Of a DNA stretch of 64,000 bases, positions 8,476-42,288 are shown piece by piece (position 1 is the first letter of the stretch; each line of letters opens with the position of its first letter). Source of the stretch: Herbiconiux sp. A18JL235 (lineage in GTDB: Bacteria; Actinomycetota; Actinomycetes; Actinomycetales; Microbacteriaceae); assembly GCF_040939305.1 (NCBI RefSeq), contig NZ_CP162511.1, positions 930,001-994,000 of the forward strand. The letters are read 5' to 3'. Both the position numbers and the translations under genes were made by a program. Under the pieces are notes generated by a model. That model was not told the origin of the DNA and did not search any database. It saw only the letters and a list, made by a program, of their open reading frames with translations.

Positions 8476-9233
<758 letters not shown>

Positions 9234-9237
<4 letters not shown>

Positions 9238-10634
9238 ACCGCTTCCGCCTTCGCGAGCATGCGCCGAGCATCCTGGTCGCCACCCTCTCCTCGGCCTTCG
9301 GCGTCGCGCTGCTGTCGGTGACAGGGCACCTCACGGCCATCATCGCGGCCGACGACGTCACCGGTTCGAGTTCCACGGTCGCTTTCGTGCTGGCTCTGCT
9401 CGGCGGGGTCTTCATCGTCATCGCCACCTACGTGGGGGCGGTCGTGACGGCCAACACCTTCGCCACCATCATCGCGGGCCGCACCCGCACCATCGCCCTG
9501 CTCAGACTGCTCGGCGCGAGCGCGACGAGCCGGCGCCGCGCCGTGGCGGGGGAGGGGCTGCTGGTCGGGGTCGTGGGCGCGGTGCTGGGGGCGCTCCTCG
9601 GCGTGCTGGTGAGCGCGGGCCTCGTCGCCGTCGCGATGGCGAGCGGACTCGCGCCCGTGCTGTCCTACGAGTGGGTGCAGCCGGTGATCGTGCTTCCCGT
9701 GGTCGTCGTGGTGGTCACCACCTGGGCGGCATCCTGGGCCGGTTCGCGCCGGGTGCTCGACGTGTCGCCGATGCAGGCGACGGGCGGCGCCCATGAAGTG
9801 CGGTACGAGGATGCCCGCAAGGGTCGCGGCCGGAACGTCGCGGCGCTCGTGCTGCTGCTGCTCGGCGGCGGGCTGCTCGCGCTCGGTGTCGTCGTGGGCG
9901 TGGCGAACCCGGTCGGCATCCTGCCCGCGGTGCTCGGCGGGGTGCTCTCGTTCACCGGCTTCGTGCTCGGCGCACAGCTCGTCATGCCTGCCGCCCTGCG
10001 TCTCGTGGGCCGCCTGTTCGGGCGAGGTGCCAGCGCGCGACTGGCATCGGAGAACGCGGTGCGCTACCCGGAACGCAGCACCCGCACCACCATCGGCCTG
10101 GTGATCGGCGTGACCCTGGTGACGATGTTCGCCGTCGCGTCGGGGAGCTATCAGAGGGTGCTGGAGACCGCCTTCCCGGGCGGCCCCGACGGCGCGGTGC
10201 AACTCGACGCGATCATCCTCACCACCGTGGTGATCTTCTCTGTGCTGCTCGGCTTCAGCGCGCTCATCGCGGCGGTCGGCATGGTGAACAACCTGTCGCT
10301 CAGTGTGATGCAGCGCACCCGCGAACTGGGGTTGCTGCGCGCGCTCGGGTTCACCAGTGGTCAGCTGCGACGGATGATCGCCGTCGAGAGCGCACAGCTC
10401 ACGGTCGCCGCGGTGCTGGTCGGGCTGCTGCTCGGCGTCTTCTACGGCTGGGCGGGTGCCCAGTCGCTGCTGGCCTCGCTGCCGGGAACAGGTGGCTTCG
10501 TGGTGCCCGTCGTGCCGCTCTGGCTGCTGGCCGCGGTGGTGGTGGCGGCGGCACTGCTCACGCTGGCCGCTTCGGTCGCGCCCACCCGCCGTGCCACCCG
10601 CATCTCCCCGGTGGTGGCGCTCGCGGTGGAGTGA
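9234..10634 (+). CDS. ABC transporter permease with FtsX-like domains
   Basis: 466 residues, start GTG overlapping the ATPase stop. Hydrophobic segments fall in two blocks: three helices plus one in the first 180 residues, then a paired hairpin and four more helices. The second block holds the FtsX signature region MVNNLSLSVMQRTRELGLLRALGFT, and the first holds a similar RTRTIALLRLLGAS, so it is a compact two-module permease. No periplasmic MacB-like domain is present. With the ATPase it forms a complete exporter, substrate unknown. Confidence 0.92.
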
Positions 10635-27996: not shown

Positions 27997-28716
27997 GTGC
28001 GCAAGCCCCTGGTCTTCATCCTGCTCGCCGCCGTCGCGGTGGCTGCGGCGGTCACCACGGCCGTCGCCGTCGCGACGCTGACGCCGAGCAGCAGCACGAG
28101 CACGAGCAGCAGCACGAGCGCGAGCACCGCACCCGACCCGAACGCCCCGGTCGTCGCCTTCTACGGCGACTCCTACACCCTCGGCACCGGCGCATCCGAC
28201 CCCGCCCTCCGCTGGTCGAGCGTCATCAGCGCCGAGCGCGGCTGGAACGAGTTCAACCCCAGCGTCAACGGCCTCGGCTTCGTGAACAACCGCGCAAGCA
28301 CCCCGCCCGACTACGCGCCGACCGACGAGGTGAGCGAGATCATCGCCGCCGACCCCGACATCGTGTTCATCACGATGGGCCTGAACGACAACTTCTCCAT
28401 GCCGCGCCGCGCCGACGACATCCAGGCTGCGATCCGCACCGACTTCAGCACCCTGCGCACCGAGCTGCCCGAGGCCCGCATCATCGTCGTCGAGCCGTTC
28501 TGGTACACGGATGCGCGCCCCGACTCGGTCGAGCAGATCATCGCCTGGGTGCACGACGAGGCGGGGGCGATCGGCGCCGACTACATCGGGGGAGCCTCGC
28601 ACTGGATCGAGGGCCACCCCGAGTGGATGGCCGCCGACGGCCTGCACCCCAACGACGCCGGCTACGCCGAGATGGCCACCCGCATGGACGCCGAGCTCAC
28701 CCGCCTCGGCCTCTGA
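27997..28716 (+). CDS. SGNH/GDSL-type secreted esterase-like hydrolase
   Basis: 239 residues. One N-terminal helix (signal peptide or anchor, residues 4-27), a Ser/Thr run, then an SGNH fold: block I YGDSYTLGTGA (Ser nucleophile), block III ITMGLNDNF (Asn) and block V DGLHPNDAGYAEMA (Asp/His). Likely deacylates a surface or extracellular ester, for example acyl groups on cell-wall glycan; substrate not readable. GTG start; the ribosome site is weak. Its last 25 bases including the stop are duplicated in tandem downstream. Confidence 0.88.
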   Translation: MRKPLVFILLAAVAVAAAVTTAVAVATLTPSSSTSTSSSTSASTAPDPNAPVVAFYGDSYTLGTGASDPALRWSSVISAERGWNEFNPSVNGLGFVNNRASTPPDYAPTDEVSEIIAADPDIVFITMGLNDNFSMPRRADDIQAAIRTDFSTLRTELPEARIIVVEPFWYTDARPDSVEQIIAWVHDEAGAIGADYIGGASHWIEGHPEWMAADGLHPNDAGYAEMATRMDAELTRLGL

Positions 28717-28801
28717 CGAGCTCACCCGCCTCGGCCTCTGACGAGCCACCCCCTCGGCCTCCGACGAGCCACCCCTCGGCCTCTGACGAGCCACCCCCGC
28801 G
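28693..28801 (+). repeat. Tandem duplications of the hydrolase 3' end
   Basis: Unit of about 25 bp (GAGCTCACCCGCCTCGGCCT...) at 28693-28717 and identically at 28718-28742, then shortened copies at 28743-28765 and 28766-28787 and a fragment to about 28801. Each full unit carries the TGA stop, so the copies are silent. Confidence 0.9.
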
Positions 28802-28807
28802 CGGCGG

Positions 28808-28813
28808 TAGGCT
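28808..28813 (+). promoter_or_regulatory. -10 box of leaderless promoter (TAGGCT)
   Basis: TAGGCT six bases before the ATG at 28820. Confidence 0.5.
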
Positions 28814-28819
28814 CACCGC

Positions 28820-31291
28820 ATGGCATCCGTGCGGCTCGAGCAGCGACAGCGTCAGCCCACCTCCGCGGCGACGTCGTTCGTGCTCATCGCGATCACGGCG
28901 GCGACGATCGCCTTCGGTGTCGTGGCGGGCATCGCCGATCCGCCGCGGAGCTGGATCTCGTGCGTCGTCTTCCTCCTCAGCGTCGGCGTCACCGCCGTGT
29001 TCCAGCTGCCGATCGGTCGCGCCGCGGGCCTCCCGCCGATCGGTGTGGCGAGCGCCCTGCTCGTGGTGGGCACGGCGGGAACGAACCCCGTGTTCGACGT
29101 GGGGATGTGGGTGCTGGCGTACTTCGTCTCCCGCGCCCTCAGCACGCGCTCGCTCTTCCTCTCGGCGCAATGGTCTGGTGTGGCGACGCTCGGCGCGATC
29201 GCGTTCGTCGCCTCGTCGCGGTGGCTCATCGGGCTGGGCGTCAGCGATCTGATCGCGGTGGTCGTGGGCGTCGTGCTTTACGTGGTGGTGGTGCTCGCGC
29301 TCGAGTTCGTGCGTGAGCGCGGCCGGTGGAGCGTCGACAGCACCTTCGGGTTCAGCGGGCTGAGCCTGTGGCGTCTGGGCGCCGTGCTGGGCCTGAGCGC
29401 CGTGGTGGCACTCGGCGTCTTCGTGTCGACGACGGGGATGCTGCGCATCGTCGACGGCCCCGCCGAGCAACTCCAGCTGGCCCGGGAGACCATCCCGCTG
29501 CTGCTGGTCTCGATGGTGTTCTACGGGGCGGCGAAGCGCCGCCAGACCAGGAGCAGCGAGCGCCGGCTGAGCGGCGTCGTCGACGCGGCGCGGGCCCTCC
29601 CGTGGAGCACCGAGCAGGATCCGCGGGAGACGATGGTCGACTTCGCCCGCCGGGCCATCGACGCCACCGACTTCGAGATCCGCCGCACCCCTCCCGGCCG
29701 CAACGAGATCGGCACGCGCTTCTCCGAGATCGACTCGACCGACCCGCAGCTGAACCCCGAGTCGTTCTCCGACGCCGAGGACGGGGTGTCGCAGGAGCAT
29801 CAGCAAGACGCGGTGCAGCCGCCCGAGTACCTCATCGCGAGCCGCAAGAGCGGCGGCTCCCCGTTCACCGCCGACGACGAGCTCGCCCTCGACGCCATCG
29901 GGCACATGGCCTCCGAGACCGCGCGGGTGCGCGGCGCCTACGACACCCTGCTCGACCAGGTCGACCGCGACTCGCTCACCGGCCTGCCGAACTACAACGC
30001 CTTCCAGCGCTCGCTCGCCCGCCTCAACGAAGACCGCACCTACGCCTCCGGCATCGCCGTGCTGTTCATCGACCTCGATCAGTTCAAGCGCCTCAACGAC
30101 TCCGAGGGCCACCACATCGGCGACGAGGTGCTCTCGGTGGTCGCCACGCGCCTGCGCGCGAGCGTGCGCTCGCACGACTTCGTGGCGCGGGTGGGCGGCG
30201 ACGAGTTCGTGGTCATCCTCACCAAGCTGCAGTCGCTGGCCGAGTCGAAGCAGGTCGCCGACCACATCGTGGCGAACGTCGGCGCCCCCGCCACCCTGGG
30301 TGGCAGGGAGTACCGCCCCCTGGTGAGCGTGGGGCTCGCCTACTCGGGGCACCAGGAGACCGACCCGCAGTCGATCGTCGTCGACGCCGACCACTCGATG
30401 CTCGCCATCAAGAAGTCGAGGCGGCAGGGCGGGCCGTCGTTCGAGTCGAGCATCGGCATCTCCCCGCACCGCTCGAGCCGCATCAACGAGATCGTGGCGA
30501 AGGCCATCGACGACGGCGTGCTCAACGTCGTCTACCAGCCCATCGTCAACACGGTCGACGACGAGATCTGGGCGTTCGAGTCGCTCGTGCGCTACACCCA
30601 CCCCGAGCTCGGCCGCATCTCGACGTCGTCGCTGATCGAGAAGGCCAAGGGCCTCGGCCGCATGGACCAGCTCACCAAGCAGGTCATCGCCGCCTCCCTG
30701 AAGTCGGCTCGCGAGTTCCACAAGGTGGTTCCGGGCATCGCCACGATGACCATCAACCTCGAGGTGGAGCAGATCCGCGACGAGCACGTGGGCGCCTTCC
30801 TCAAGGAGATCGTGCCGAAGTACCCCGAGGTCACGCTCTGCCTCGAGCTCAACGAGCGCTCGGTTAAGGACATCGACGACGACCTGCGCCGGCAGGCCGA
30901 GCACTTCCGGGCCCTCGGCATGCTCATCGCGCTCGACGACTACGGCTCGGAGGCCTCCTCCGTGGGGGCTCTGGTGCGCATCCCGATGGACATCCTGAAG
31001 ATCGACCGCTCCCTCGTCGACAACCTCGACGACACCCGCCAGCGCGAGGTGGTGCGTGCGCTGCAGGGCTTCGGCGACGCCTTCGACTACTCGACGATCA
31101 TCGAGGGCGTGGAGACTCAGGATGCTGTGGACATCCTCGCGGGAATCGGTGTGAAGCACGCCCAGGGCTTCTTCTACGGCCGGCCGATGCCGTTCAACCA
31201 GACCATGGCGCGCCTCAAGGCCAACGGCGCGGCGGGAACACCGGGTCGGGAACGCGACCGCGAGCGGGAGCGGGCCCGCGAGGCCGGGTAG
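28820..31291 (+). CDS. Membrane GGDEF-EAL protein (cyclic-di-GMP turnover)
   Basis: 823 residues. About seven to eight N-terminal helices (1-235) form a membrane sensor; a GAF-like soluble part spans about 250-375. The GGDEF domain (about 380-545) has DSLTGLPNYNAF and an intact GGDEF at about 458. The EAL domain (about 555-805) reads FESLVRY for EAL, with TINLE, ELNERS, ALDDYGSEASS, DILKIDRSLV and EGVET, so metal and catalytic positions look largely kept. It may make or degrade c-di-GMP; which activity dominates is unknown. Next to a GH6 glucanase and close to a BcsA-like synthase. A basic tail (RERDRERERAREAG) ends the protein. Confidence 0.93.
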   Translation: MASVRLEQRQRQPTSAATSFVLIAITAATIAFGVVAGIADPPRSWISCVVFLLSVGVTAVFQLPIGRAAGLPPIGVASALLVVGTAGTNPVFDVGMWVLAYFVSRALSTRSLFLSAQWSGVATLGAIAFVASSRWLIGLGVSDLIAVVVGVVLYVVVVLALEFVRERGRWSVDSTFGFSGLSLWRLGAVLGLSAVVALGVFVSTTGMLRIVDGPAEQLQLARETIPLLLVSMVFYGAAKRRQTRSSERRLSGVVDAARALPWSTEQDPRETMVDFARRAIDATDFEIRRTPPGRNEIGTRFSEIDSTDPQLNPESFSDAEDGVSQEHQQDAVQPPEYLIASRKSGGSPFTADDELALDAIGHMASETARVRGAYDTLLDQVDRDSLTGLPNYNAFQRSLARLNEDRTYASGIAVLFIDLDQFKRLNDSEGHHIGDEVLSVVATRLRASVRSHDFVARVGGDEFVVILTKLQSLAESKQVADHIVANVGAPATLGGREYRPLVSVGLAYSGHQETDPQSIVVDADHSMLAIKKSRRQGGPSFESSIGISPHRSSRINEIVAKAIDDGVLNVVYQPIVNTVDDEIWAFESLVRYTHPELGRISTSSLIEKAKGLGRMDQLTKQVIAASLKSAREFHKVVPGIATMTINLEVEQIRDEHVGAFLKEIVPKYPEVTLCLELNERSVKDIDDDLRRQAEHFRALGMLIALDDYGSEASSVGALVRIPMDILKIDRSLVDNLDDTRQREVVRALQGFGDAFDYSTIIEGVETQDAVDILAGIGVKHAQGFFYGRPMPFNQTMARLKANGAAGTPGRERDRERERAREAG

Positions 31292-31312
31292 GCCGGGCGG
31301 GATAGAGTTGAG

Positions 31313-31318
31313 CCGACA
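31313..31318 (+). promoter_or_regulatory. -10 box (TAGAGT) of GH6 gene
   Basis: TAGAGT 21 bases before the GTG at 31340, followed by ribosome site AGGAAGGGG. Confidence 0.4.
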
Positions 31319-31339
31319 CCCGCGACAGGAAGGGGCTCC

Positions 31340-32329
31340 GTGCCACGAGTTCTGCCCCGCATCGGCCTCGCCGTGGCGATCGTGGCGATCGTCGGCGTTC
31401 TGGCGGCCATGGTGATCGGCGTCGGCGGCATCCTGTCCCAGGGCGGGGTGGCGAGCGACAACCCCTTCGCGGGCAAGACCCTGTTCGTCGACCCGGCGTC
31501 GAAGGCGGCGACAGCCGCGGCCGAGGAGAAGAAGGCCGGCGACGAGGGCGATGCCGCCGTCTTCACCCGCATCGCTGAGGTTCCGACCGCCATCTGGCTC
31601 ACGCCCGAGAAGCACCCGATCGACGACGTGGGAGGCTACGCCTCGAAACTCGTCGACGAGGCCGCGAAGCTCAAGGCGACGCCCGTGTTCGTGGTCTACG
31701 GCATCCCGAACCGCGACTGCGGCAACCAGTCGGCGGGCGGCCTGTCGAACGACGACTACCCCGTCTGGGTGAAGGAGATCGCCGACAGCCTCGAGGGCAG
31801 CGACTCCGTCATCATCCTCGAGCCCGACGCCCTGGCGCTCGCCGACGAGTGCGACAACGTCGACGAGCGGCTCGTGCAGGTGGGCGACTCGGTCGACACG
31901 CTCGTGGCGGCGGGTCTCACGGTGTACATCGACGCCGGTCACTCGAACTGGGGCCCGGCTGCCGAGATGGCCGACCTGCTGAACCGCGCGGGCGTCGAGC
32001 GGGCGCGCGGCTTCTCGACCAACGTGTCGAACTACAACACCACCGACCGCGAGCAGTACTACGCGAACTCCATCTCGGCGCTCACGAACGGCGCGCACTA
32101 CGTCATCGACACGGGCCGCAACGGTGCCGGATCGAACGGCGAGTGGTGCAACCCGCCCGGCCGCGCCCTCGGCGCGACGCCGGAGCCGGCGAAGTCGGGC
32201 TCGGCGCAAGACGCGACCCTCTGGGTCAAGCCCCCGGGCGAGAGCGACGGCGAGTGCAACGGCGGGCCGGCAGCGGGAGAGTGGTGGAACGAGAACGCCC
32301 TCGAGCTGGCGAAGAACGCCGGCTGGTAG
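31340..32329 (+). CDS. Membrane-anchored or secreted GH6 beta-1,4-glucanase
   Basis: 329 residues. N-terminal hydrophobic segment (8-33) and then one GH6 domain, no carbohydrate-binding module. Family signatures: VFVVYGIPNRDCGNQSAGG, VIILEPDALA (general acid Asp), YIDAGHSNWG, GFSTNVSNYN, VIDTGRNGAGS and WVKPPGESDG. Cleaves cellulose-like glucan outside the cell. Position beside a GGDEF-EAL protein and a BcsA-like synthase parallels CslZ/BcsZ hydrolases of polysaccharide synthesis loci rather than a feeding enzyme. GTG start with AGGAAGGGG upstream. Confidence 0.93.
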   Translation: MPRVLPRIGLAVAIVAIVGVLAAMVIGVGGILSQGGVASDNPFAGKTLFVDPASKAATAAAEEKKAGDEGDAAVFTRIAEVPTAIWLTPEKHPIDDVGGYASKLVDEAAKLKATPVFVVYGIPNRDCGNQSAGGLSNDDYPVWVKEIADSLEGSDSVIILEPDALALADECDNVDERLVQVGDSVDTLVAAGLTVYIDAGHSNWGPAAEMADLLNRAGVERARGFSTNVSNYNTTDREQYYANSISALTNGAHYVIDTGRNGAGSNGEWCNPPGRALGATPEPAKSGSAQDATLWVKPPGESDGECNGGPAAGEWWNENALELAKNAGW

Positions 32330-32402
32330 AGCGGATGCGCGCCGCGCATCACACGGCGGGCCCGCTTGGGCAGGCCCCATGCCGGGTGAGGTGATCCCTT
32401 GC

Positions 32403-32408
32403 TACGAT
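32403..32408 (+). promoter_or_regulatory. -10 box of leaderless promoter (TACGAT)
   Basis: TACGAT, seven bases before ATG 32416; this favours that ATG over the GTG at 32410. Confidence 0.5.
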
Positions 32409-32415
32409 CGTGGCA

Positions 32416-33369
32416 ATGGACACGCATGGGGAACGTAGGGTCGCGGTCATCATCGAGGATGACGCCGACATCAGGCACCTTCTCGAGACGGTGCTGAGCC
32501 AGGCCGGCTTCGAGGTCGTGGCGACCGGGAACGGTCTCGACGGAGTGCAGGCGGTGCGGGCCTACGACCCGATGGTCACCACGCTCGACGTGAGCATGCC
32601 CGGCATCGACGGCTTCGAGGCGGCCAAGCGCATCCGTGCCTTCAGCAACACCTACCTGGTGATGCTGACGGCCCGCGACGAGGAGATCGACACCCTGCAG
32701 GGTCTCGAGGCGGGCGCCGACGACTACCTCACGAAGCCGTTCCGCCCGCGCGAGCTGCGGGCGCGGGTCGAGGCGATGATGCGGCGCCCGCGGCAGGTGA
32801 ACGCGGTCGACGGGTCTGGTCCGGTCGCGCCCATCGCCGCCCCGCCGGCTCCGGCGCCTGCCGCGCAGGCTCCCGCTGTCCAGTATGCGCCGCAGGCTCC
32901 CGCTTCCTCGGCCCCCGCCGCGGGCTACGCTCCCGCCCCCGACGCTGCCTCCTACGCCGCCACGCCGACCGCCCCGCTCGCCCCCGCCGCCGCTGCTCCC
33001 GAGCCCGCGGCGCCCAAGAGCTACTCGCGCGAAGACGGCTGGCTCGAGCACAACAGCCTGTTCGTGAACTCCGAGATGCGTCTCGCCGAGAAAGACGGCA
33101 AGGCCATCGACCTCACTCGTAGCGAGTTCGACCTGCTGAACGCGCTCATGGAGAGCCAGCGTCGGGTGCGCAGCAAGGCCGACCTGGCGCTGCTCCTGCG
33201 TGGTGAGAGCTACGTCACCGCCCACTTCGTGAGCGAGGCCGACAAGCGCGCCATCGAGGTGCACATGGCGAACCTGCGCCGCAAGCTCGCCGACAGCATC
33301 ACCACGCCGCGCTGGATCGAGACCGTGCGGGGCGTCGGCTACCGCCTCGCCGCCTCCGAGGACGACTGA
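32416..33369 (+). CDS. OmpR-type response regulator with long Pro/Ala linker
   Basis: 317 residues, about 90 longer than usual. Receiver (1-120) with EDDADIRHLL, phosphoacceptor Asp in TLDVSMPGIDG, VMLTARDEE and DDYLTKPFRPREL. A disordered Pro/Ala linker (about 130-205) precedes the winged-helix domain (LTRSEFDLLNALMESQRRVR, AIEVHMANLRRKLAD, IETVRGVGYRL). The last 31 bases overlap, tail to tail, the Hpt-like gene on the other strand. No kinase is fused or coupled; the minus-strand kinase near 38 kb is a candidate partner. Likely controls this polysaccharide/signalling region. Confidence 0.92.
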   Translation: MDTHGERRVAVIIEDDADIRHLLETVLSQAGFEVVATGNGLDGVQAVRAYDPMVTTLDVSMPGIDGFEAAKRIRAFSNTYLVMLTARDEEIDTLQGLEAGADDYLTKPFRPRELRARVEAMMRRPRQVNAVDGSGPVAPIAAPPAPAPAAQAPAVQYAPQAPASSAPAAGYAPAPDAASYAATPTAPLAPAAAAPEPAAPKSYSREDGWLEHNSLFVNSEMRLAEKDGKAIDLTRSEFDLLNALMESQRRVRSKADLALLLRGESYVTAHFVSEADKRAIEVHMANLRRKLADSITTPRWIETVRGVGYRLAASEDD

Positions 33370-33734
33370 CCCGAACCCGTCGCCTTCAGGGAGTCGAGCA
33401 GCTCGAGCAGTTCGTCGCAGGTGTGCCTGCCCACCTCGTGCAGCCTCGCGAGGTGCGACATGCATCCGGCCAGGTCCTGCTGCTTGACAGCGGTGTGCAC
33501 CATGCCGGCGATGGCCTCGAGGGGCCACGCGCCGAGCATGGTGCTCGACGAACGGATGCTCAGACACACCACATCGGCATCCTCGAAGTCGCGGATGCCG
33601 AGTGCTTTCATCAACCTCTGGGATCGGGTCTCCCAGAGGTTGATGAAGTCGTGGACGAAGCGGCCGCGGTGCTCGTCGTCTCCGACGGCACTGAGGAGGC
33701 CGAGGGCCGCCTCGCGGTCGACGAACCGGGTCAA
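33339..33734 (-). CDS. Hpt-like helical protein lacking the phosphoacceptor His
   Basis: 131 residues. The pattern around CLSIRSSSTMLGAWPLEAIA lines up with the Hpt block AHxLKGSSxxLGAxxL, but the His position is not His and the Lys position is Arg. If it is an Hpt fold, it cannot take part in a normal phosphorelay. A Cys/His-bearing helix (GCMSHLARLHEVGRHTCDEL) follows. The start is TTG, overlapping the glycosyltransferase stop as TTGA, so it is co-translated with that enzyme. A perfect 17-bp hairpin lies in its coding sequence. A binding or regulatory role on the synthase or the convergent response regulator is inferred. Confidence 0.7.
   Translation of the reverse strand: MTRFVDREAALGLLSAVGDDEHRGRFVHDFINLWETRSQRLMKALGIRDFEDADVVCLSIRSSSTMLGAWPLEAIAGMVHTAVKQQDLAGCMSHLARLHEVGRHTCDELLELLDSLKATGSGQSSSEAARR
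33607..33647. repeat. Perfect 17-bp hairpin inside the Hpt-like gene
   Basis: TTCATCAACCTCTGGGA (33607-33623) and its exact reverse complement (33631-33647) flank a seven-base loop. It encodes FINLWETRSQRLM on the minus strand. Confidence 0.95.
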
Positions 33735-35173
33735 ACCTTGTACCCCCGGTAGCGGCGGAGGACCTTGATGACCATGCCGAGGGTCTGGATGATCGTGATG
33801 ATGCCGAGCACCGGCCAGCCGATCCAGAGGATTGTCGATTGAACGAACGGGGTGAGCTGGAACCAGACCAGCACCATCACCGCCACGACGAGCACCAGGA
33901 TGACGAGGGGCACGAGGTAGCCGTTGCCGCGACCGCGTTCAGCCTTGGCCTGGGCCGCCCAGTTGTCGGTCTGCTTGCGGCTGAGGAACTTGGTCCATGC
34001 CCGGAGGAAGTGCCCGAGCCTGACCCACATGTAGATCTCGGCGGGGAACAGGGCGAGCGCGAAGAAGATGTCACGACCGTTGCGGTTCTTCATCGACAGC
34101 GCCGTGCGGAGGTTCAGCAGAATGGCGACGACCGGCGGGATGAGCCAGATGGGGGAGAACACGAAGGCGTTGATCGACAGCGAGGCGAACAGCAGGATGA
34201 AGAACAGCACGCGGGTGACGAGGTTCGTGAGCATCGAGAGGTTCTCGAGCCAGCGCAGGCGGAGGTTCGGGTGGAAGGGCTGACCCTTCGTGTCGCCGCG
34301 CTGCCCGGGCCACATGAGCTCGATGGCGCCGAAGTTCCACTTCACCTGCTGCGCGTCGAGGCCGCGGAGGGTGGTCATGCCGCCCACGTCGGCGCGGGCC
34401 TGCGCCGAGATCTTGGTGAGGTAGCCCGCGCTCTTGATCTGGAGCGAGAGCAGCGAGTCCTCCACCTCGGAGTCCTTCACCCACGGGGTGTTCTGGTGGT
34501 TCTCGACCATGATCTGGCGGAGCGCCTTGGTGGAGAAGATGGAGAACTGCCCGCCGAGCACCGCCATGTTGCGGCCGCGCAGCATGTTCTGCATGTTGAA
34601 GGCCGCGAACTGGAACCGCTGGCCGGTGATGAGGAACTTGGCGATGAAGCCCTTGATGGGCGCGTCGTCGATGGAGAAGATCGCCGAGATGCCGCCGATG
34701 CGCGAGTCGGAGGTGATCTCCTCTGCGAGACGCTCCACAGCATCCGGGGCCGCCGTGGTGTCGCCGTCGACACCGAGCAGGAAGTCGCAGCCCTCGACCA
34801 GCTGGTAGCCGTAGTTGAGCGCGCCCACCTTCTTGTCTTTGTTCTTGCCGATGTCGTGCACGTAGACCTCGGTGAACTGCTCGACCCCGTCGACCTCCTT
34901 GAGATGGGGGCCGGCGTACTGGGCAGCGATCTTCACCGTGTCGTCGGTGGTGTTGTTCACCACGACGTGGATGACGTCGGGGAGGCGGGTCTGGTTGAGC
35001 AGCGACTCGAGCACGTCGCCGATCGACTCCGCCTCGTTGTAGGCCGGGATGATGCACCCGATCGTGGGTCGGTACGACGGCAGCGATTCCACCGACTCGA
35101 TGAAGTCGTTCTGGAACTCGCCCGACTCACCGAGTTCGGTGCGGTCGGTCACGTACGGGTTGATCTCTGACAT
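33731..35173 (-). CDS. BcsA-like processive family 2 glycosyltransferase
   Basis: 480 residues. Cytosolic GT-A domain (about 35-300) with IIPAYNEAESIGDVLESLL, VNNTTDD, DxD in LLGVDGDTTAAPDA, DSEVEDSLLSLQI (acceptor/base region) and QQVKWNFG where QxxRW of processive synthases is expected (Arg replaced by Lys). Five C-terminal helices follow (about 310-470). No N-terminal helices and no PilZ domain, so it is shorter than BcsA; closer in layout to actinobacterial CslA-like or hyaluronan/chitin-type synthases. It should polymerise a surface beta-glycan and thread it through the membrane. Coupled to the Hpt-like gene; the GH6 enzyme is 1.4 kb away. Confidence 0.9.
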   Translation of the reverse strand: MSEINPYVTDRTELGESGEFQNDFIESVESLPSYRPTIGCIIPAYNEAESIGDVLESLLNQTRLPDVIHVVVNNTTDDTVKIAAQYAGPHLKEVDGVEQFTEVYVHDIGKNKDKKVGALNYGYQLVEGCDFLLGVDGDTTAAPDAVERLAEEITSDSRIGGISAIFSIDDAPIKGFIAKFLITGQRFQFAAFNMQNMLRGRNMAVLGGQFSIFSTKALRQIMVENHQNTPWVKDSEVEDSLLSLQIKSAGYLTKISAQARADVGGMTTLRGLDAQQVKWNFGAIELMWPGQRGDTKGQPFHPNLRLRWLENLSMLTNLVTRVLFFILLFASLSINAFVFSPIWLIPPVVAILLNLRTALSMKNRNGRDIFFALALFPAEIYMWVRLGHFLRAWTKFLSRKQTDNWAAQAKAERGRGNGYLVPLVILVLVVAVMVLVWFQLTPFVQSTILWIGWPVLGIITIIQTLGMVIKVLRRYRGYKV

Positions 35174-35219
35174 GGCTCAAGTCTGCGGTATCACCCACAG
35201 GGTTCGCACGTGAATGCGC

Positions 35220-35225
35220 TAGGGT
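35220..35225 (+). promoter_or_regulatory. -10 box (TAGGGT) of lipoprotein gene
   Basis: TAGGGT 54 bases before the ATG at 35280, in the divergent gap to the glycosyltransferase. Confidence 0.35.
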
Positions 35226-35279
35226 CCGGTCAGGAAAACCTTAAGATTGCATCAGTCGGAACGGGAGAGGGTGTTGTCG

Positions 35280-35930
35280 ATGGCAGGCAGGCTGTTCAGG
35301 GGCATCGCGGCGGGTGCCGTCGCGCTCGCCACCGTGGCCGGCGTGAGCGCCTGCGGCACCGCCCCGTGGGATCAGTCGCGCTTCAACACGGATGCGCCGG
35401 AGACGTCGTCGTCGGCTCCTGCGACCCCCACAGCCCGCCCCACCATCACCCCCGTGGTGAACGAGCTCGCCACGGGCAGCGCCAAGCACCTCCTGCAGGC
35501 CGGCGACATCGCGATGACGGTCGACTACTACTCGACCCTCAGCATGGACCAGTGGACGGCCGAGGCGAACAAGCCCATCACCTTCTCGCTCACCGGCGCC
35601 CTCGGCACCGACGACGGGCAGAGCTTCTACCTCTCGCGGGTCACCCTCACCCCCGCGGTCGACGGGCCGACCGGCTCGCTGCCCGCCCCCGCCCCCATCA
35701 CCGACCAGGCGGCTGTGCAGCCGGGGTACTACATCAAGTCGCCCTACAGCTACAGTCAGACCTTCATCCTGCCCGCGCTCGATCCGGCGGCCACCTCGGT
35801 GACGCTCTCGTTCACCTACGAGATCCTGCTGCAGACGGCGCCCGGGTCGAACGACTACGCCAAGCAGACGGCCAGCGACCAGCTCACCGTGGCCATCGCT
35901 CAGGCACCCGACTCGTCGGGCGGCGAGTGA
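35280..35930 (+). CDS. Lipoprotein next to the glycosyltransferase
   Basis: 216 residues. Signal peptide with lipobox GVSAC (Cys about 25), a Ser/Thr/Pro spacer, then a beta-rich domain with LLQAGDIAMTVDYYSTLSMDQW and a final stretch SVTLSFTYEILLQTAPGSN. No known family recognised. ATG chosen with GGGAGAGG upstream; an earlier start at 35247 would break the signal peptide. Divergent from the synthase gene, so a role at the cell surface in handling or anchoring the polymer is possible but unproven. Confidence 0.8.
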   Translation: MAGRLFRGIAAGAVALATVAGVSACGTAPWDQSRFNTDAPETSSSAPATPTARPTITPVVNELATGSAKHLLQAGDIAMTVDYYSTLSMDQWTAEANKPITFSLTGALGTDDGQSFYLSRVTLTPAVDGPTGSLPAPAPITDQAAVQPGYYIKSPYSYSQTFILPALDPAATSVTLSFTYEILLQTAPGSNDYAKQTASDQLTVAIAQAPDSSGGE

Positions 35931-35948
35931 GGCGATCGGGCGGAGCCG

Positions 35949-37124
35949 TTACGAACCGGCCTGCGTGACCCCGCGCCCCACCACGATGCTGTTGCCGCCC
36001 GCCTCCCGCGCGGCGTGGGTGGCGTCGTCGAGCGCCCGGCGCAGTACGGGCAGCCCGTAGCCGTAGCCCTCGGTGTCGACGACCCCGAAGCTGGCCGTCG
36101 CCCGCAGCGACTGCTGCGGGTCGATCGGCTCGTCGACCAGGGCGGTCTGCAGACGGATGGCGAGCTGCTCGGCGTCGACGGCGCTCTGCGTGACCACCAC
36201 GATGACGAAGCGGCCTGCGCCGGTGTGACCGAGCAGTGCTGTGGTGGGTGCGTGGTGCCGCACGATCTGGGCGACGGAGCGGATGGCGGTGTCGCCGAAG
36301 GTGCGGCCGAACGCGGTGTTCATCTGGGGCAGGTTGTCGACATCCATCGCGATCATGGCGAGCCGGTCGCCGTGGAAGGATGCGCGTTCGACCCAGTCGG
36401 CCCACTGCTGCATGAAGGGGGCGGCCGAAAGCACCCCGACCACCGAGTGCACACCGACCGTGACGTCGCCGAGCGCCCGTGCGCCCGAGCGCTCCGCCTG
36501 CAGGATCGACATCGAGATGGTGCCTAGCAGCACGACGACGATGGTGAGGACGGAGGTGAGCTCCGAGCTGAAGTACTGCTGGAAGGTCGAGCTCTCGGGG
36601 CCCAGGCTCACGAAGATGCCGGTGCGGGCGACGTAATAGGCGCAGACGATCCAGAGGGCGAAGCTCATGACTCGCGCGTTCAGGTTGCGCCGCATGCGGG
36701 AGCGCATGGTCTCCGCACCGCCGAGGCCCGCGAACACCGCGACCCCCGCGAACAGTGCAGCCGAGCCCGTCCACTCGCCCCCGGCGGGGCCTTCGATCGC
36801 CGTGAACAGCGCGACGACCCCACCGCCCAGGAGAACCACCCAGATGAGCGACGGCCGGCCGTTGAACACGCGCGCCCCCGCCCAGATGGATCCGATCGAG
36901 ATGACGTGCGCCGTGTTGCCGACCGCGAGCACCCACCACAACTGGTCGGAGATGCTCCAGACCGAGAACGACAGGGCGGTGAGCATGGCTGCGATGAAGG
37001 AGATGCTCCAGAGACGACCGGAGGCGTCGTTCCGCCGCATCGCGGTGTTGAGGATGAAGGTGATGCCGCAGAGGACGATGATGAGACCGCTGGTGACGAT
37101 GAGGGTGTCGAGGTCGAGTGTCAT
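35949..37124 (-). CDS. Membrane protein with degenerate GGDEF domain (paralogue 1)
   Basis: 391 residues. Six to seven helices (1-215) including GNTAHVISIGSIWAGARVFNGRP, then a GGDEF-fold domain whose active loop reads GHTGAGRFVIVV (GAGRF for GGDEF) and whose substrate region AMDVDNLPQMNTAFG keeps DxD-like residues. Catalysis is therefore doubtful; such proteins often bind GTP or c-di-GMP or regulate partners. AAGGAGG nine bases before the ATG. The same architecture and the GNxA...FNGR block recur in the gene at 43732. Confidence 0.85.
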   Translation of the reverse strand: MTLDLDTLIVTSGLIIVLCGITFILNTAMRRNDASGRLWSISFIAAMLTALSFSVWSISDQLWWVLAVGNTAHVISIGSIWAGARVFNGRPSLIWVVLLGGGVVALFTAIEGPAGGEWTGSAALFAGVAVFAGLGGAETMRSRMRRNLNARVMSFALWIVCAYYVARTGIFVSLGPESSTFQQYFSSELTSVLTIVVVLLGTISMSILQAERSGARALGDVTVGVHSVVGVLSAAPFMQQWADWVERASFHGDRLAMIAMDVDNLPQMNTAFGRTFGDTAIRSVAQIVRHHAPTTALLGHTGAGRFVIVVVTQSAVDAEQLAIRLQTALVDEPIDPQQSLRATASFGVVDTEGYGYGLPVLRRALDDATHAAREAGGNSIVVGRGVTQAGS

Positions 37125-37173
37125 GCCGTGAGACCTCCTTCCGCGCCGCGCATCGGCCGCCGATGATCGGAGT

Positions 37174-38808
37174 TTATCGCGCGCGGGGAAGAGTCGCCGT
37201 GAACGTCGTTCCGACGCCGATCGCGCTCGACACCGTGAGGTCGCCGCCGTGGCGCCGAATGATGTCGCGGCTGATGGTGAGCCCAAGCCCGGAGCCGTGG
37301 ATCGTCGACTGCCGCACGCCCTCTGCCCGGAAATACCGTTCGAACAGCTTCGACTGCTCCAGGTCGGTCAGGCCGATGCCGGTGTCGCTCACCACCAGGT
37401 CGATGCTGCCGGCGTCGGCGCTGACCGACACGTCGACCCTGCCGTCTTCGACGTTGTACTTGATGGCGTTCGAGAGCAGGTTGTCGACGACCTGGCGCAG
37501 GCGGAAGCCGTCGGCGTCGAGGATCACCGGCCCCGCCACGCGGTTGACGATCTCGATGCCGCGCTCGCCCGCCGCGATGGTCTGACCCTGGATGGCCTGG
37601 GCGACGATCTCGGCGAGGTCGCACTGGCTGAACGACATGACGATCTGCTGCTCCTTCTCGCTGGCAGCCGTGAGCAGGTCGGCGACGAGGGCGAGCAGAC
37701 GGTCGGAATTGGCCGAGGCCACCTCGAGCATCGACCGCGTCGACGGGTCGAGGGTCTCGTCGTCGAGGGCGAGTTCGAGGTAGCCGAGGATGGAGGTGAG
37801 GGGAGTGCGCAGCTCGTGCGAGACCGAGGCCACCAGGTCGTCACGGGCCCTGATGGCGTTGATCTCGCTGGTGACGTCGCGGGAGATCATCACACCACCG
37901 TCGGGCTCGCCGTCGGGGGCCGTGAGCGGTCGCGAGCTGACCGAGAGCGCGATGCGGTGCTCGCCCGGCTCGCCGAGCCACACCACCATGTCGTCGAAGC
38001 GCTCGCCGCGGGTGGCCCGCCCGAACGGCCGCTCGTTCTCGTCGTAGGGGGTGACGCGATCGGGGCGGTACATCACCGGATGCTCGATGCTGGTCTCGGG
38101 GAGCCCGAACTCGGTCTGATAGTTGCGGTGGGCACGGTTGACGATGGTCTGCTTGCCGTCTTTGCCGAAGGCGACGACACCGAAGGTCACGGCGTTCAGC
38201 ACCTCGTCGAGCGTCTGCTCCTGTCGCCGCGCCCGGCGCAGGGCGACCTCGAGGAGGTCGGCCTGCTGGCGCAGCAGGCCCCTCTGGGCAGCTGTGCGAC
38301 TCGAGGTTGCGAGCGTGGTCGTGGCGATGAAGGCGAGGGTGACGGGCAGCACCAGCAGGGAGCCGAGGTTGGCGACGCTGACGGGCACGTCGCCGATCAC
38401 CGCGCTCAGCCAGATGAGCAGGGCGGAGGTGAGCACACTGACCACGGCGCCGGTCAGCCCGAAGTAGCTCGACAGCCAGATCACCGGGAACACGAGCAGC
38501 AGGCCGGTGCCGAGCTGCAGGTTGCCCTCGCGCACGAGCATGATGGCGAAGATGTCGACGACCGGCAGTGCGGCGGCCCAGGCGCGCGGGATGCTCGACC
38601 ACGGCACGAGCGCTGCGGCGCCGGTGAGCACGAAGACGACGGCGACCCCGCCGAAGAACCGCACGTCGAGCACCGCGGAGGGCTGGAAGATGTAGGCGGC
38701 GCAGACGAGCAGCAGCAGGGCCGCCGCGAGAAGGAGCTGCGACTGGAACACGGCACGGTCGAACCGGGAACGGCGCTCCGTCTCCCTGTCCCCGTTCCCC
38801 GCACTCAT
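37174..38808 (-). CDS. Sensor histidine kinase with membrane domain and PAS
   Basis: 544 residues. Six helices in residues 20-165 (MASE-like membrane sensor), a coiled coil, a PAS domain (EVLNAVTFGVVAFGKDGKQT...GGVMISRDVTSE), HisKA with VASVSHELRTPLTSILGYLE and a HATPase with VVDNLLSNAIKYN, VSDTGIGL and SGLGLTISRDIIRRHGG. No receiver domain. Leaderless start: TACCCT seven bases before the ATG. Best available partner for the orphan OmpR-type regulator at 32416. Confidence 0.93.
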   Translation of the reverse strand: MSAGNGDRETERRSRFDRAVFQSQLLLAAALLLLVCAAYIFQPSAVLDVRFFGGVAVVFVLTGAAALVPWSSIPRAWAAALPVVDIFAIMLVREGNLQLGTGLLLVFPVIWLSSYFGLTGAVVSVLTSALLIWLSAVIGDVPVSVANLGSLLVLPVTLAFIATTTLATSSRTAAQRGLLRQQADLLEVALRRARRQEQTLDEVLNAVTFGVVAFGKDGKQTIVNRAHRNYQTEFGLPETSIEHPVMYRPDRVTPYDENERPFGRATRGERFDDMVVWLGEPGEHRIALSVSSRPLTAPDGEPDGGVMISRDVTSEINAIRARDDLVASVSHELRTPLTSILGYLELALDDETLDPSTRSMLEVASANSDRLLALVADLLTAASEKEQQIVMSFSQCDLAEIVAQAIQGQTIAAGERGIEIVNRVAGPVILDADGFRLRQVVDNLLSNAIKYNVEDGRVDVSVSADAGSIDLVVSDTGIGLTDLEQSKLFERYFRAEGVRQSTIHGSGLGLTISRDIIRRHGGDLTVSSAIGVGTTFTATLPRAR

Positions 38809-38815
38809 GATCTGT

Positions 38816-38821
38816 AGGGTA
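38816..38821 (-). promoter_or_regulatory. -10 box of histidine kinase promoter (TACCCT)
   Basis: AGGGTA on plus, TACCCT on minus, seven bases before the ATG at 38808. Confidence 0.45.
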
Positions 38822-38922
38822 CAGGCACCGGAGGCGGCGATTGGCGGCGTGTCGGCACGGCGGATATCCTCGTTCCGGGGGTCTTCCGTGAACGGTTCGG
38901 GTGCGCAGCGGGTGACTGCGCG

Positions 38923-40122
38923 ATGACGTTGCAGATCGCCGCCGACGTCGACGGCGTCGTCACGAGCCGCGCTCTCGCTCGAGCGGGTGTCTGGCTGTCG
39001 TCGGTCTTCCTCGCGGCAACGGTGGTGCTCACCGCCCTGTTCATCCCGATCACCGGCCGCTGGGAGCTCTCACTGGCCATCGTCGGCCTGCTGGTGACCG
39101 CCGCCGGAGTGATCGCGGCCCTTCTCACGCGCTCCTTCGTGCGGGCACTCGTCTACACGATCGCGGGCTGCGCCGGCCTCTACGTCTACGCGCTCCTCGC
39201 CACAGGGGTGACCGTCAGCCTGTCTCCGCATCCGCCGTCGAGCGACTACGTGCTGCTGTCGATGCCCGAGCTCGCGGTGCTCGTCGTGGGGGTCGCCGCC
39301 CGGTCTCTCGCGAAGTCGATCGTGCTGGGGAGCGTCGCCTTCGTCGCCGGGCCGGGCTTCGTGCAGCTCGCGGCCTGGCAGCAGGGCATGACCCTTGCCG
39401 TCGACGTGCCGGTGGTGGCGGCCTACGTGGCCCTCGGCCTCCTCGTCAGTGCCCTGTGGCTCGGCCGGCGCGACGCGGCTCGCGGCACCGTGATGATGTC
39501 GGATGCGGCGCTCGCCGAGGAGCGCGACGTCGCGATGGGCCGCTTCACCGCCCGGGCCTCGACGTGGCTTCACGACACCGTGCTCGTCGACCTCCGGGCG
39601 CTCGCCGACGGCTCGCCCGGCCCAATCCCGCCGGAGCAGATGCAGGCGATCGATCGCGATCTCGCGAACCTCGCCGACGTGCGGGTGATCCTCGAGGGCC
39701 AGCGCCCGGCCGGGTCGTTGCGCAAGCTCGCGAAGGTGCCGCTGCTCGTGGGTCTGGTGAGGGCCGCCGAGCAGAAAGGTCTGGCCGTGCGGGTCACGGG
39801 CGACATCGACGCCGTCAACGCCCTCAGCGTCTCGGTGGGGCGTGCCGTCGAGCGGGCCGTTGCCGAGTGCCTCGACAACGTGACGGCGCACTCGGGGGTC
39901 GTGGAGGCGGAGATCGCCGTGATGTCGAGCCCGCCGGAGCTGAGCATCATGGTGTCGGATGCGGGGGTCGGCTTCGACGTCGACGCCGCCGACGACCACA
40001 CGGTGGGCCTGCGCATGACCGTCGTCGACACCATCGTCGAAGTCGGGGGCTCCGTGCAGATCTGGTCGCGGCCGGGGGCAGGCACCGCCGTCTTCGTCAC
40101 GGTGCCCGGGGGTGCCGCATGA
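38923..40122 (+). CDS. Membrane sensor kinase with DesK-like H box
   Basis: 399 residues. Five to six helices in residues 15-185, then FTARASTWLHDTVLVDLRAL, in which LHD(T)VL resembles the HisKA_3 phosphoacceptor motif, and a HATPase-like C-terminus (VERAVAECLDNVTAHSG, SDAGVGFD, GLRMTVVDTIVEVGGSVQIWSRPGAGTAV). No receiver partner is linked; instead the next gene overlaps by ATGA and encodes another membrane protein. Could act as a kinase for a distant regulator or as an ATP-binding sensor. Confidence 0.82.
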   Translation: MTLQIAADVDGVVTSRALARAGVWLSSVFLAATVVLTALFIPITGRWELSLAIVGLLVTAAGVIAALLTRSFVRALVYTIAGCAGLYVYALLATGVTVSLSPHPPSSDYVLLSMPELAVLVVGVAARSLAKSIVLGSVAFVAGPGFVQLAAWQQGMTLAVDVPVVAAYVALGLLVSALWLGRRDAARGTVMMSDAALAEERDVAMGRFTARASTWLHDTVLVDLRALADGSPGPIPPEQMQAIDRDLANLADVRVILEGQRPAGSLRKLAKVPLLVGLVRAAEQKGLAVRVTGDIDAVNALSVSVGRAVERAVAECLDNVTAHSGVVEAEIAVMSSPPELSIMVSDAGVGFDVDAADDHTVGLRMTVVDTIVEVGGSVQIWSRPGAGTAVFVTVPGGAA

Positions 40123-41264
40123 ACGTGCGCGAGGCGGCGCTGCGCCCGCCCGCAGGCACCACGGCGCTGCAGCTCGACCCGCTCGCCTCCATCAGCGCAC
40201 GCGGCTTCCTGCTCGTGGTGACGGCGGTCTCCCTGCTGACCGCGGTCGGGCTGACGGTGGTCGCCGCCGACCAGATCTCGTCGTGGCCTCTCGCCGTCGC
40301 GGCGATCGTGGCGCTGGCGGCGGGACACGCCTGGTTCATCCGCAGCGCCTTCCGTTTCGATCTCGGGGTCACGAGCGATCGCTTCGCGACAGCCTTCGCG
40401 CTCATCGCGATCGCCACCGTGCTCAGCTCGGTGAGCTGCATCGGCACGAACCTCTACATCCGGGACGACTGGGGGCTCCTCACCATCGGCCTCGCGATGA
40501 TGGCGGCGGCGCCGTTCCGCACCTCGGCGGAGCTCACGGGCTACACGGTCATCTCGACGGTGCTCTGCACCGTTCTCGCCACCCTTCACTACTTCTTGAG
40601 CTTCGAGGACTCGCTTCCGCTGGCGGTGATCGTCGCGGTAGCGGTGGCTCCGGCCCTCGCCCTCGGCCTCGGCTCGATCGCCTACGCGCGCACTCTGTTG
40701 CGCGGCATCTACGCGGAGCGCCTCACCCAGGCCGAGCAGAGGGAACAACAGTACGAGGAGGTGCGCGGCCGGTTCGTCGACGACGACCTGATGGGGGAGA
40801 TGGGGGCGCTGCGGGAGGAGATCGTGCCGTTCCTGGCGCGCATCCGTCTCTCGGGAACCCTCAGCCCCGAAGACCGCGTGCGCGCGGGGGAGCTCGCAAG
40901 GAGCCTGCAGGCCGCGATCGCCGAGACGCAACAGCTCGACTCGCTGGGCGATCACGTCGACCTCCTCGTCGATGAGAGCGGTCTCTCACCGCGCCTCCAC
41001 GAAGACGACCGGGCGACGCTGCGGGCGTTGCTCGTGGCGGTGCAGTCGTCGCCGCACACCCGCCCGGGGTCGATCATCCTGGAGCTGGTGGAGGGGGAGG
41101 ACGACCGCTTCGGCATGCTGCGCTGCTCGAGCTCCGACGTGCGCGCGCTCCGCTCCGCCGTGCTCCCGTTCATCAGGATGACCCGGCTGATGATGCGCAC
41201 CACCTCGGAGGAGGTGCAGGGCGACGAACTGCTGGTGCAGTTCGACATCGACCGCGTCGCGTGA
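40119..41264 (+). CDS. Membrane sensor-like protein with kinase-like but His-less helical domain
   Basis: 381 residues. Six helices (30-200), a coiled coil (ERLTQAEQREQQYEEVRGRF), then a helical bundle (ALREEIVPFLARIRLSGTLSPEDRVRAGELARSL) like the dimerisation part of actinobacterial kinases but with no phosphoacceptor His in the expected place, and a C-terminal alpha/beta part without ATP-lid motifs. Its ATG overlaps the stop of the kinase-like gene, so the two probably form a hetero-complex. No family name can be given. Confidence 0.75.
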   Translation: MNVREAALRPPAGTTALQLDPLASISARGFLLVVTAVSLLTAVGLTVVAADQISSWPLAVAAIVALAAGHAWFIRSAFRFDLGVTSDRFATAFALIAIATVLSSVSCIGTNLYIRDDWGLLTIGLAMMAAAPFRTSAELTGYTVISTVLCTVLATLHYFLSFEDSLPLAVIVAVAVAPALALGLGSIAYARTLLRGIYAERLTQAEQREQQYEEVRGRFVDDDLMGEMGALREEIVPFLARIRLSGTLSPEDRVRAGELARSLQAAIAETQQLDSLGDHVDLLVDESGLSPRLHEDDRATLRALLVAVQSSPHTRPGSIILELVEGEDDRFGMLRCSSSDVRALRSAVLPFIRMTRLMMRTTSEEVQGDELLVQFDIDRVA

Positions 41265-41309
41265 GCCCGCGAGGGGTCGTGTCCCGGTGCGGAACCGCAT
41301 CGAGTGGCG

Positions 41310-41774
41310 CTACTCCTGCTGCGCCGCGACCCTCGCCATGTCGAGCAGGAAGGTGCGCACCACGAGGGCGGCGCGGGCGTCGAGGCCGGTGGCGACCGCC
41401 ATCATCCGGCGGTGCATCTCGCCAAGGGTCTGGCGCACTTCGTCGTCAGAGCCGGGAGTCGCCGTCACAGCGAGCGATCGGCGGTCGGTGGGGTGCGGGT
41501 GACGGGAGAGGTGGCCGGACTTCGTGAGGCGATCGAGCATCACGGTGACGGAGGCCGACTTCATGCCGAGGTGATCGGCGAGCGCCCCGGGAGTGACGAC
41601 GCGCCCTTCGCGTTGGGCCTTGAGAAGGAAGCGCAGGGCGGTGAGGTCGTTCTCGCCCATCTTCATCGACTCGCGCGTGCGGCGACGCATCGCCTCTTCG
41701 GCGGCGCGGTAGGCGCGCAGTTCGGTCAAGACCTCCAAGCTGCGCCTCGAGGCCTGCGGTTCAGCGCCGCTCAT
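41310..41774 (-). CDS. MarR-family regulator (paralogue A)
   Basis: 154 residues. Winged-helix core NDLTALRFLLKAQREGRVVTP, LADHLGMKSASVTVMLDRLTKSGHL and wing HPTDRRSLAVTATP. Shares a nearly collinear sequence with the preceding gene (MGENDL...SASxTVxLDRLxKxGHL). Its first 14 bases overlap the end of that gene, so the two paralogues are co-translated; they may form heterodimers. No enzyme gene follows in the operon. Confidence 0.88.
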   Translation of the reverse strand: MSGAEPQASRRSLEVLTELRAYRAAEEAMRRRTRESMKMGENDLTALRFLLKAQREGRVVTPGALADHLGMKSASVTVMLDRLTKSGHLSRHPHPTDRRSLAVTATPGSDDEVRQTLGEMHRRMMAVATGLDARAALVVRTFLLDMARVAAQQE

Positions 41775-42288
41775 CGCGATCGAAGACGTGCGAGTCGACC
41801 TGGTCGACGGCGTCTCTCATGCGGGTGAGAAAAGCCACGACGGTCTCGGCGTCGTCTTCGGACAGGCCCTCGATGATCTGCAGCAGCTCGGGCCGGGCGT
41901 CGCCCAGGGCTGCCGCCTCGAGCTCGCTGCTCGGTGTGCTCGGCACGATGATGAGCGCCCGACGGTCGAACGGGCTGGGCTGCCGGGTGAGGTGGCCGTT
42001 CTTCTCGAGGCGGTCGAGGAGGACAGTGATGGAGGCGCTCGTGATGCCGAGGTACTGCGCGAGCTCCTTGGGCCCGACGGCCTTGCCCTCGGCGGTGGCG
42101 CGCAGCAGGTAGCGCATGGCGATGAGGTCGTTCTCGCCCATGCCCATCGAGGCTTGGGAGCGGCGTCGCATGGCGGACTCGGCGGCGCGGTAGCTGCGCA
42201 TCGCCTCCAGCACGTCTACTCCGCGCTGGTGTCCGGCATCATCGGCGTACCAGTAGTGGTTGGCCGACTCGGGGCGGTCGGTGGTCAT
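41761..42288 (-). CDS. MarR-family regulator (paralogue B)
   Basis: 175 residues. Winged helix NDLIAMRYLLRATAEGKAVG, LAQYLGITSASITVLLDRLEKNGHL, SPFDRRALIIVPS; N-terminal extension contains ESANHYWYADDAG and a C-terminal helical dimer region. Leaderless: TACGAT six bases before the ATG at 42288. First gene of a two-gene operon with paralogue A. Confidence 0.9.
   Translation of the reverse strand: MTTDRPESANHYWYADDAGHQRGVDVLEAMRSYRAAESAMRRRSQASMGMGENDLIAMRYLLRATAEGKAVGPKELAQYLGITSASITVLLDRLEKNGHLTRQPSPFDRRALIIVPSTPSSELEAAALGDARPELLQIIEGLSEDDAETVVAFLTRMRDAVDQVDSHVFDRDERR

Follow-up and report, generated by a model that had tools for sequence, protein, structure and literature searches.

A conserved actinobacterial gene block with a predicted glycan synthase, a two-component system and a non-phosphorylatable Hpt-like protein

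Introduction

In Streptomyces, the cslA-glxA-cslZ locus places a family 2 glycosyltransferase (GT2) synthase beside a membrane-bound GH6 enzyme, as described in an excerpt of PMC9040799. A similar pair is found in Herbiconiux sp. A18JL235, in a 64-kb stretch of its 4.3-Mb genome (contig NZ_CP162511.1, positions 930,001 to 994,000; here called the window, with positions counted from its first letter), and GT2 and GH6 genes stand together at 58 of 62 related loci. The two systems differ in several respects. CslZ is a lipoprotein, whereas the GH6 protein of the window has a single hydrophobic anchor and, by eye, no lipobox Cys. No GlxA-type (copper radical oxidase) domain occurs in the ten proteins of positions 27997-40119, to which the domain scan was limited. 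Compared with the Streptomyces locus, and without the CslA sequence in that comparison, the block adds a sensor kinase, an OmpR-family regulator, a pseudo-Hpt protein, a separate lipoprotein and a direct repeat. An earlier note, made from the sequence alone, had considered the layout distinct from the Streptomyces loci for its Hpt-like partner, its lipoprotein and its want of PilZ and GlxA, and on the last two the scan of the ten proteins agrees.

Other described systems share single elements with the block. The proteobacterial bcsABZC locus of E. coli also combines a synthase with an endo-1,4-glucanase gene, though BcsZ is not a GH6 enzyme; unlike bcsABZC, the block has no PilZ and no BcsB- or BcsC-type domain among the ten scanned proteins, and its match to the BcsA profile is weak. 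The PgaC/IcaA poly-GlcNAc synthases resemble the GT2 protein in their DGD, ED and QxxRW/KW motifs, which align. However, GT2 has no N-terminal transmembrane (TM) segment, where PgaC has two, carries QxxKW for QxxRW, and is encoded near a GH6 gene, with no deacetylase among the scanned proteins. Arabidopsis AHP6 is a pseudo-Hpt that inhibits signalling (PMC5579306, in excerpt). AHP6 belongs to a plant multistep relay; the pseudo-Hpt of the window is bacterial, its gene adjoins that of a single OmpR regulator, and a shared repeat lies upstream of it. Elsewhere, OmpR/pseudo-Hpt pairs adjoin SipW-dependent exported proteins (TIGR04089), where the output is protein and not glycan. In the open-licence PubMed Central literature, judged by titles and the beginnings of abstracts, we found no description of this glycan locus and none of a bacterial pseudo-Hpt whose gene adjoins that of an OmpR regulator; both are weak negatives.

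Conservation of the gene block

The six genes that the earlier note had named within 7 kb are all present with the domains it gave them, at 28820-35930, and two further conserved genes lie directly beyond, extending the block to 38808. This layout is not due to chance. GT2 is found in all 15 same-genus genomes (one copy, in G009, is cut by a contig end). In 12 of the 15 corresponding regions the GGDEF-EAL, GH6, OmpR, Hpt, GT2, lipoprotein, degenerate-GGDEF and kinase genes are complete and in the same order, and the remaining three (L040, L044 and L050) are interrupted by contig ends. The genes lysC and asd lie upstream of the block wherever a same-genus region extends far enough.

The block is conserved in soil and plant actinobacteria. 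A GT2 scan of named species genomes gave 222 relatives confirmed by tblastn, and the best 80 (67-95% identity) were studied. These come from Herbiconiux, Glaciihabitans, Leifsonia, Okibacterium, Cryobacterium, Agreia, Labedella, Agromyces, Plantibacter, Curtobacterium, Microbacterium, Subtercola, Sanguibacter, Nocardioides, Aeromicrobium, Microlunatus and others. At 62 of the 80 loci, GT2 is flanked by 6 kb or more on either side (well-flanked loci); OmpR is present at 61 of these, GH6 at 58, the lipoprotein at 56, the kinase at 49, the degenerate GGDEF protein at 44, the pseudo-Hpt at 30 and the GGDEF-EAL protein at 16. Loci within one genus are not independent, L053 and L056 were counted as Herbiconiux in the genus groups, and some of the compared stretches were hand-picked among 55 genomes. 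Of 394 genomes drawn evenly from the class, 22 carry GT2 at E <= 1e-60, that of A18JL235 included. The gene group is conserved, in its order within the genus and in the presence of its core genes across the 62 loci, so the earlier note's refuting condition of an unconserved group fails.

Three outlying sequences were also seen. Contig JACEFY010000146 (L113), titled Stenotrophomonas maltophilia, carries an actinobacterial-type GT2/OmpR/kinase locus with 71% GT2 identity and is probably a contamination. A GT2 protein on a Lacticaseibacillus paracasei plasmid (L266, 5932-7416) has 30% identity over 79% of the synthase. In another genus, L051 contains a 174-residue GT2 remnant without DxD (8755-9279) between the degenerate-GGDEF and OmpR genes, which looks like decay of the synthase with the signalling genes retained.

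The two-component pair and its candidate operator

The OmpR-family response regulator (32410-33369, forward strand; PF00072 and PF00486) has a TLDV motif that all 54 aligned sequences share. The sensor kinase (37174-38808, reverse strand), with PAS, HisKA and HATPase domains and six predicted TM segments, likewise retains its phospho-accepting His (54/54). The receiver Asp, winged helix and kinase His expected of an OmpR/PhoB two-component system are thus all in place, and from their gene neighbourhood we propose that the two proteins are partners. Next to the kinase gene is that of a 6-TM degenerate-GGDEF protein (35949 to ~37124, reverse strand, start judged by alignment; PF00990 E 9.4e-13), which has GAGRF and no RxxD. 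The regulator had been taken for an orphan; with the kinase and degenerate-GGDEF genes 2.6-3.8 kb away and co-conserved, that description no longer fits.

A tandem 11-bp direct repeat, the candidate OmpR operator, lies between the GT2 and lipoprotein genes (35229-35247, reverse strand), upstream of GT2, with a sequence close to ATCTTGAGCnnATCTTGAG, and had escaped the earlier reader. Regulators of the OmpR/PhoB type are generally known to bind direct repeats arranged in tandem with a spacing of about 11 bp. Twenty-eight of the 80 loci contain a single copy of the exact pattern TCYTRAn5TCYTRA, in every case next to the GT2 or lipoprotein gene, and the remaining periods between 8 and 15 combined give five occurrences; in the window, one copy is observed against 0.02 expected. 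A matrix was built from the 28 exact sites and compared with 385 background windows, with the 99th percentile as threshold. Of the 80 loci, 57 have a GT2 upstream region above it: 31 of the 52 not used for training and 26 of the 28 that were, the two exceptions being L127 and L131, whose site precedes a separate lipoprotein gene. Across the 15 same-genus genomes there are 16 sites with at most one mismatch, 15 of them being the GT2/lipoprotein repeat, and 27 two-mismatch sites against 11 hits of a reversed control, the pattern used having been written from the very sites it then finds. Since the repeat is nearly unique in each Herbiconiux genome, the operator prediction is readily testable.

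The site also occurs at some pseudo-Hpt loci that have no GT2. Sixteen of 30 such loci have a site above 9.5 bits, a cut-off chosen after the data were seen, within 420 bp before the pseudo-Hpt gene, compared with 8 of 555 background windows and none of seven GT2-containing loci at the same place. At 11.8 bits, which is above all 385 background windows, nine of the 30 keep the site. High-scoring sites also occur in genera that have OmpR but no pseudo-Hpt (Agromyces, Labedella and Glaciihabitans), which makes OmpR the likely binder.

A second, different exact 11-bp repeat, of the TCCTAACG or TCTTAACG type, is present in 8 of 10 same-genus genomes. In A18JL235 it lies at L245 (G000:C1:3877654), upstream of an open reading frame (ORF) that we take to be kdpF-like, and the neighbour at L232 is similar. 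With that neighbour, it is probably a KdpE site and was left out of the regulon.

Synthase, glucanase and lipoprotein

The membrane GT2 synthase (33731-35173, reverse strand; PF00535 E 3.5e-18) contains DGDT, SEVED and QQVKW. An alignment of 79 loci plus the window has DGD, VED and QQVKW in every one of its 80 rows. DGD, ED and QxxRW are the signature of processive-type GT2 enzymes, and QQVKW has Lys in place of the Arg. Hydropathy predicts four to five hydrophobic segments after the GT2 domain and none before it. The earlier note had called the protein a BcsA-like synthase without PilZ. The second part stands, as profile searches find no PilZ in the synthase or anywhere in its genome. The first part is too loose: profile comparison gives E 1.4e-12 over 225 residues for E. 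coli PgaC and E 0.0066 (probability 5.7%) for E. coli BcsA, and the BcsA assignment was dropped on this weak match.

The GH6 protein (31340-32329, forward strand; PF01341 E 5.8e-58) is annotated as a beta-1,4-glucanase with one N-terminal TM segment by hydropathy. Its motifs are intact, with RDC in 50, EPD in 51 and K..GESDG in 50 of 51 aligned sequences, the exceptions being gaps. By sequence, the closest solved chain is 1uoz, a putative cellulase (E 2.2e-72). GH6 enzymes cleave beta-1,4 bonds in cellulose and other beta-1,4-glycans (PMC9040799, in excerpt), and for this reason beta-1,4-glucan is the most likely product. The proposal that the block makes a beta-glycan is plausible given the conserved synthase motifs, the intact glucanase and the pairing of their genes, and on these predicted activities we regard it as likely.

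The secreted lipoprotein (35280-35930, forward strand) belongs to an ORF open from TTG 35247, for which ATG 35280 is the likelier start. Its lipobox, SACG, is kept in the alignment, and its family has no Pfam model: searches of Pfam and NCBIfam models found no match, and further searches gave at most weak single-member ones.

The pseudo-Hpt protein

The pseudo-Hpt gene (33339-33734, reverse strand) begins with a TTG that overlaps the GT2 stop by 4 nt. The predicted model, examined with VIA-align 2, has the four-helix fold of Hpt domains. The residue that aligns with the phospho-accepting His of HptB is Leu58, which is Leu in 23 of 23 aligned sequences and at 36 of 36 named loci; the distant members L175 and L176 have Gly. 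With this His absent, a working relay was rejected. This loss qualifies the Hpt-like label of the earlier note. Where GT2 is absent, the pseudo-Hpt keeps company with OmpR. A conserved, non-phosphorylatable Hpt accompanied by a regulator and a repeat is the more unusual feature of the block.

Since the protein cannot take phosphate on that position yet keeps a receiver-binding fold, its simplest role would be that of a decoy through which rising output reduces the phosphorylation of the regulator, although it may also be a phosphatase or an activator.

In other genera the OmpR/pseudo-Hpt pair is beside SipW-dependent exported proteins (L167, L168, L169 and L051). Nine loci have a gene with a SipW-type motif; in six of them a site scoring above 13 bits lies no more than 600 bp ahead of the motif, and in L051, L255 and L256 none does. 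Seven of nine proteins tested pass TIGR04089, and the genes immediately after the site that pass are those of L168 and L169 only. We tentatively suggest, at somewhat less than even likelihood, that non-phosphorylatable Hpt proteins form a dedicated bacterial family, each member modulating a single OmpR-type regulator by feedback from that regulator's own target transcript and moved between outputs, which would be a glycan synthase in some genera and SipW-exported proteins in others.

Proposed mechanism and alternatives

On balance, and by a modest degree, we favor an extracellular glycan unit under two-component control. The membrane kinase, possibly joined by the degenerate-GGDEF membrane protein as co-sensor, would phosphorylate the OmpR-type regulator, which would then bind the tandem repeat between the GT2 and lipoprotein genes and switch on both divergent units. 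GT2 would make a beta-glycan, with beta-1,4-glucan the likeliest, and extrude it; the GH6 protein, anchored in the membrane, would trim this glycan, and the lipoprotein would assist outside the membrane. The pseudo-Hpt, produced from the synthase transcript and relaying no phosphate, would occupy the receiver domain in the kinase's stead, and the output would in this way damp its own signal.

Several observations weigh against this model. Twenty-three of the 80 GT2 upstream regions fall below the background percentile (12 from Microbacterium, eight from Nocardioides or Nocardioidaceae and three others), and 14 of the 30 pseudo-Hpt loci without GT2 have no site above the 9.5-bit cut-off. At the four well-flanked loci of Nocardioides, neither a kinase nor a degenerate GGDEF gene is recognised nearby. 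The pseudo-Hpt is missing from 32 of the 62 well-flanked GT2 loci and is therefore dispensable for output. The GGDEF-EAL gene adjoins the module in Herbiconiux, Cryobacterium and Subtercola and also at L179, which has no GT2. Finally, of the GT2 profiles tested, that of the poly-GlcNAc synthase PgaC is the closest, and the lipid-type HpnB model scores almost as high.

The near tie weakens the model above and strengthens the alternative that survives best, which we nevertheless consider somewhat unlikely: GT2 makes a PNAG-like (poly-GlcNAc-like) or other glycan, or a glycolipid, and GH6 is a wall-remodelling enzyme that clears a path through the peptidoglycan for the exported product, a role already put forward for Streptomyces CslZ. 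PgaC_IcaA and HpnB are the closest curated models, but the synthase is far below both cut-offs, scoring 42.5 against 422.3 bits for PgaC_IcaA (NCBIfam TIGR03937, residues 35-288) and 41.1 against 379.25 bits for the hopanoid-type HpnB (NCBIfam TIGR03469, residues 31-158). A non-processive or lipid role may still be compatible with the sequence. In the published model, as excerpted from PMC9040799, CslZ together with LpmP degrades peptidoglycan. Against this alternative, none of the ten scanned proteins has a deacetylase domain, and the GH6 sequence is closest to solved cellulases.

Less likely still is that the pseudo-Hpt serves as a phosphatase of the regulator or as a membrane adaptor that docks the regulator to the synthase. 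Leu58 is invariant and Ser59, Arg61 and Ser62 nearly so (n = 23), and 33 of 36 loci offer a start codon that shares 4 nt with the GT2 stop when the start nearest that stop is chosen. For the phosphatase, LSIRS may parallel the HELRT stretch of HisKA kinases, its Ser falling where those have the Thr presumed to act in dephosphorylation; that the parallel and the role of the Thr are tentative counts against the variant. The adaptor is at odds with the persistence of the pseudo-Hpt beside OmpR where the synthase is missing.

The remaining alternative concerns cyclic di-GMP (c-di-GMP). The GGDEF-EAL protein (28820-31291, forward strand; PF00990 E 8.7e-38, PF00563 E 5.3e-48) would make and degrade c-di-GMP that activates the synthase through some receptor, and the regulator would set expression only. 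The protein has, as noted earlier, near-intact motifs: GGDEF, RxxD and the examined EAL-domain motifs are kept, and the EAL triplet itself reads ESL. It is the sole EAL match in its genome, which has a second cyclase gene at C1:3162449, and at L179 the GGDEF-EAL gene overlaps the kinase start by 4 nt. A local role in A18JL235 is possible, given the retained motifs and the single EAL match, as it is in the three genera whose GT2 loci have the gene. Across GT2 loci, however, the gene is found in 3 of 19 genus groups (Herbiconiux, Cryobacterium and Subtercola). In Cryobacterium it adjoins asd, and a comparison of Herbiconiux with Cryobacterium shows the remaining module genes inverted with respect to it. 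It is accessory to the block and not part of the core.

GGDEF and PilZ domains were sought in 22 genomes, namely the 21 other GT2 carriers of the even draw and G024. At E <= 0.001, PF00990 has no match in 11 of the 22, each at least 99% complete, and two more have a single weak match each (below the family cut-off in G631, and near its GT2 in G675). Beside the synthase in the 11 GGDEF-free genomes are OmpR in 11 and GH6 in 10, the contig ending in the eleventh. PilZ is found in one of the 22, and the synthase motifs are identical with and without GGDEF-EAL. None of 41 aligned degenerate GGDEF proteins has either GGDEF or RxxD, and a role as c-di-GMP receptor through the inhibition site was rejected on the missing RxxD. 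The search for a separate receptor proposed by the earlier note, made for PilZ and for degenerate GGDEF with RxxD, thus yields neither PilZ in the A18JL235 genome nor RxxD in this protein. The GGDEF-EAL gene was also rejected as a regulon member, the only matrix site above 5 bits in the window being that between GT2 and the lipoprotein gene. As GGDEF is missing from 11 of the 22 genomes, PilZ from 21 and RxxD from all 41 degenerate proteins, c-di-GMP is no conserved part of the block, contrary to the link first suggested, and was rejected as a conserved input; it is at most a genus-level addition in three genera. Activation of the synthase by c-di-GMP is accordingly the least probable of the three alternatives.

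Neighboring genes

In most same-genus regions that reach so far, the block adjoins an ORF for a DesK-like kinase (38923-40122) and one for a TM protein (40119-41264). A possible LuxR-type regulator (41304-41828) neighbors the block likewise. L038 and L040 contain about 2.3 kb of additional DNA between the lipoprotein and degenerate-GGDEF genes, and no GDSL gene was found in region L044.

Implications

If the favored model is true, a widespread actinobacterial glycan locus would gain a testable control circuit that is independent of c-di-GMP, and its pseudo-Hpt would be to bacteria what the pseudo-Hpt inhibitor AHP6 is to plants.

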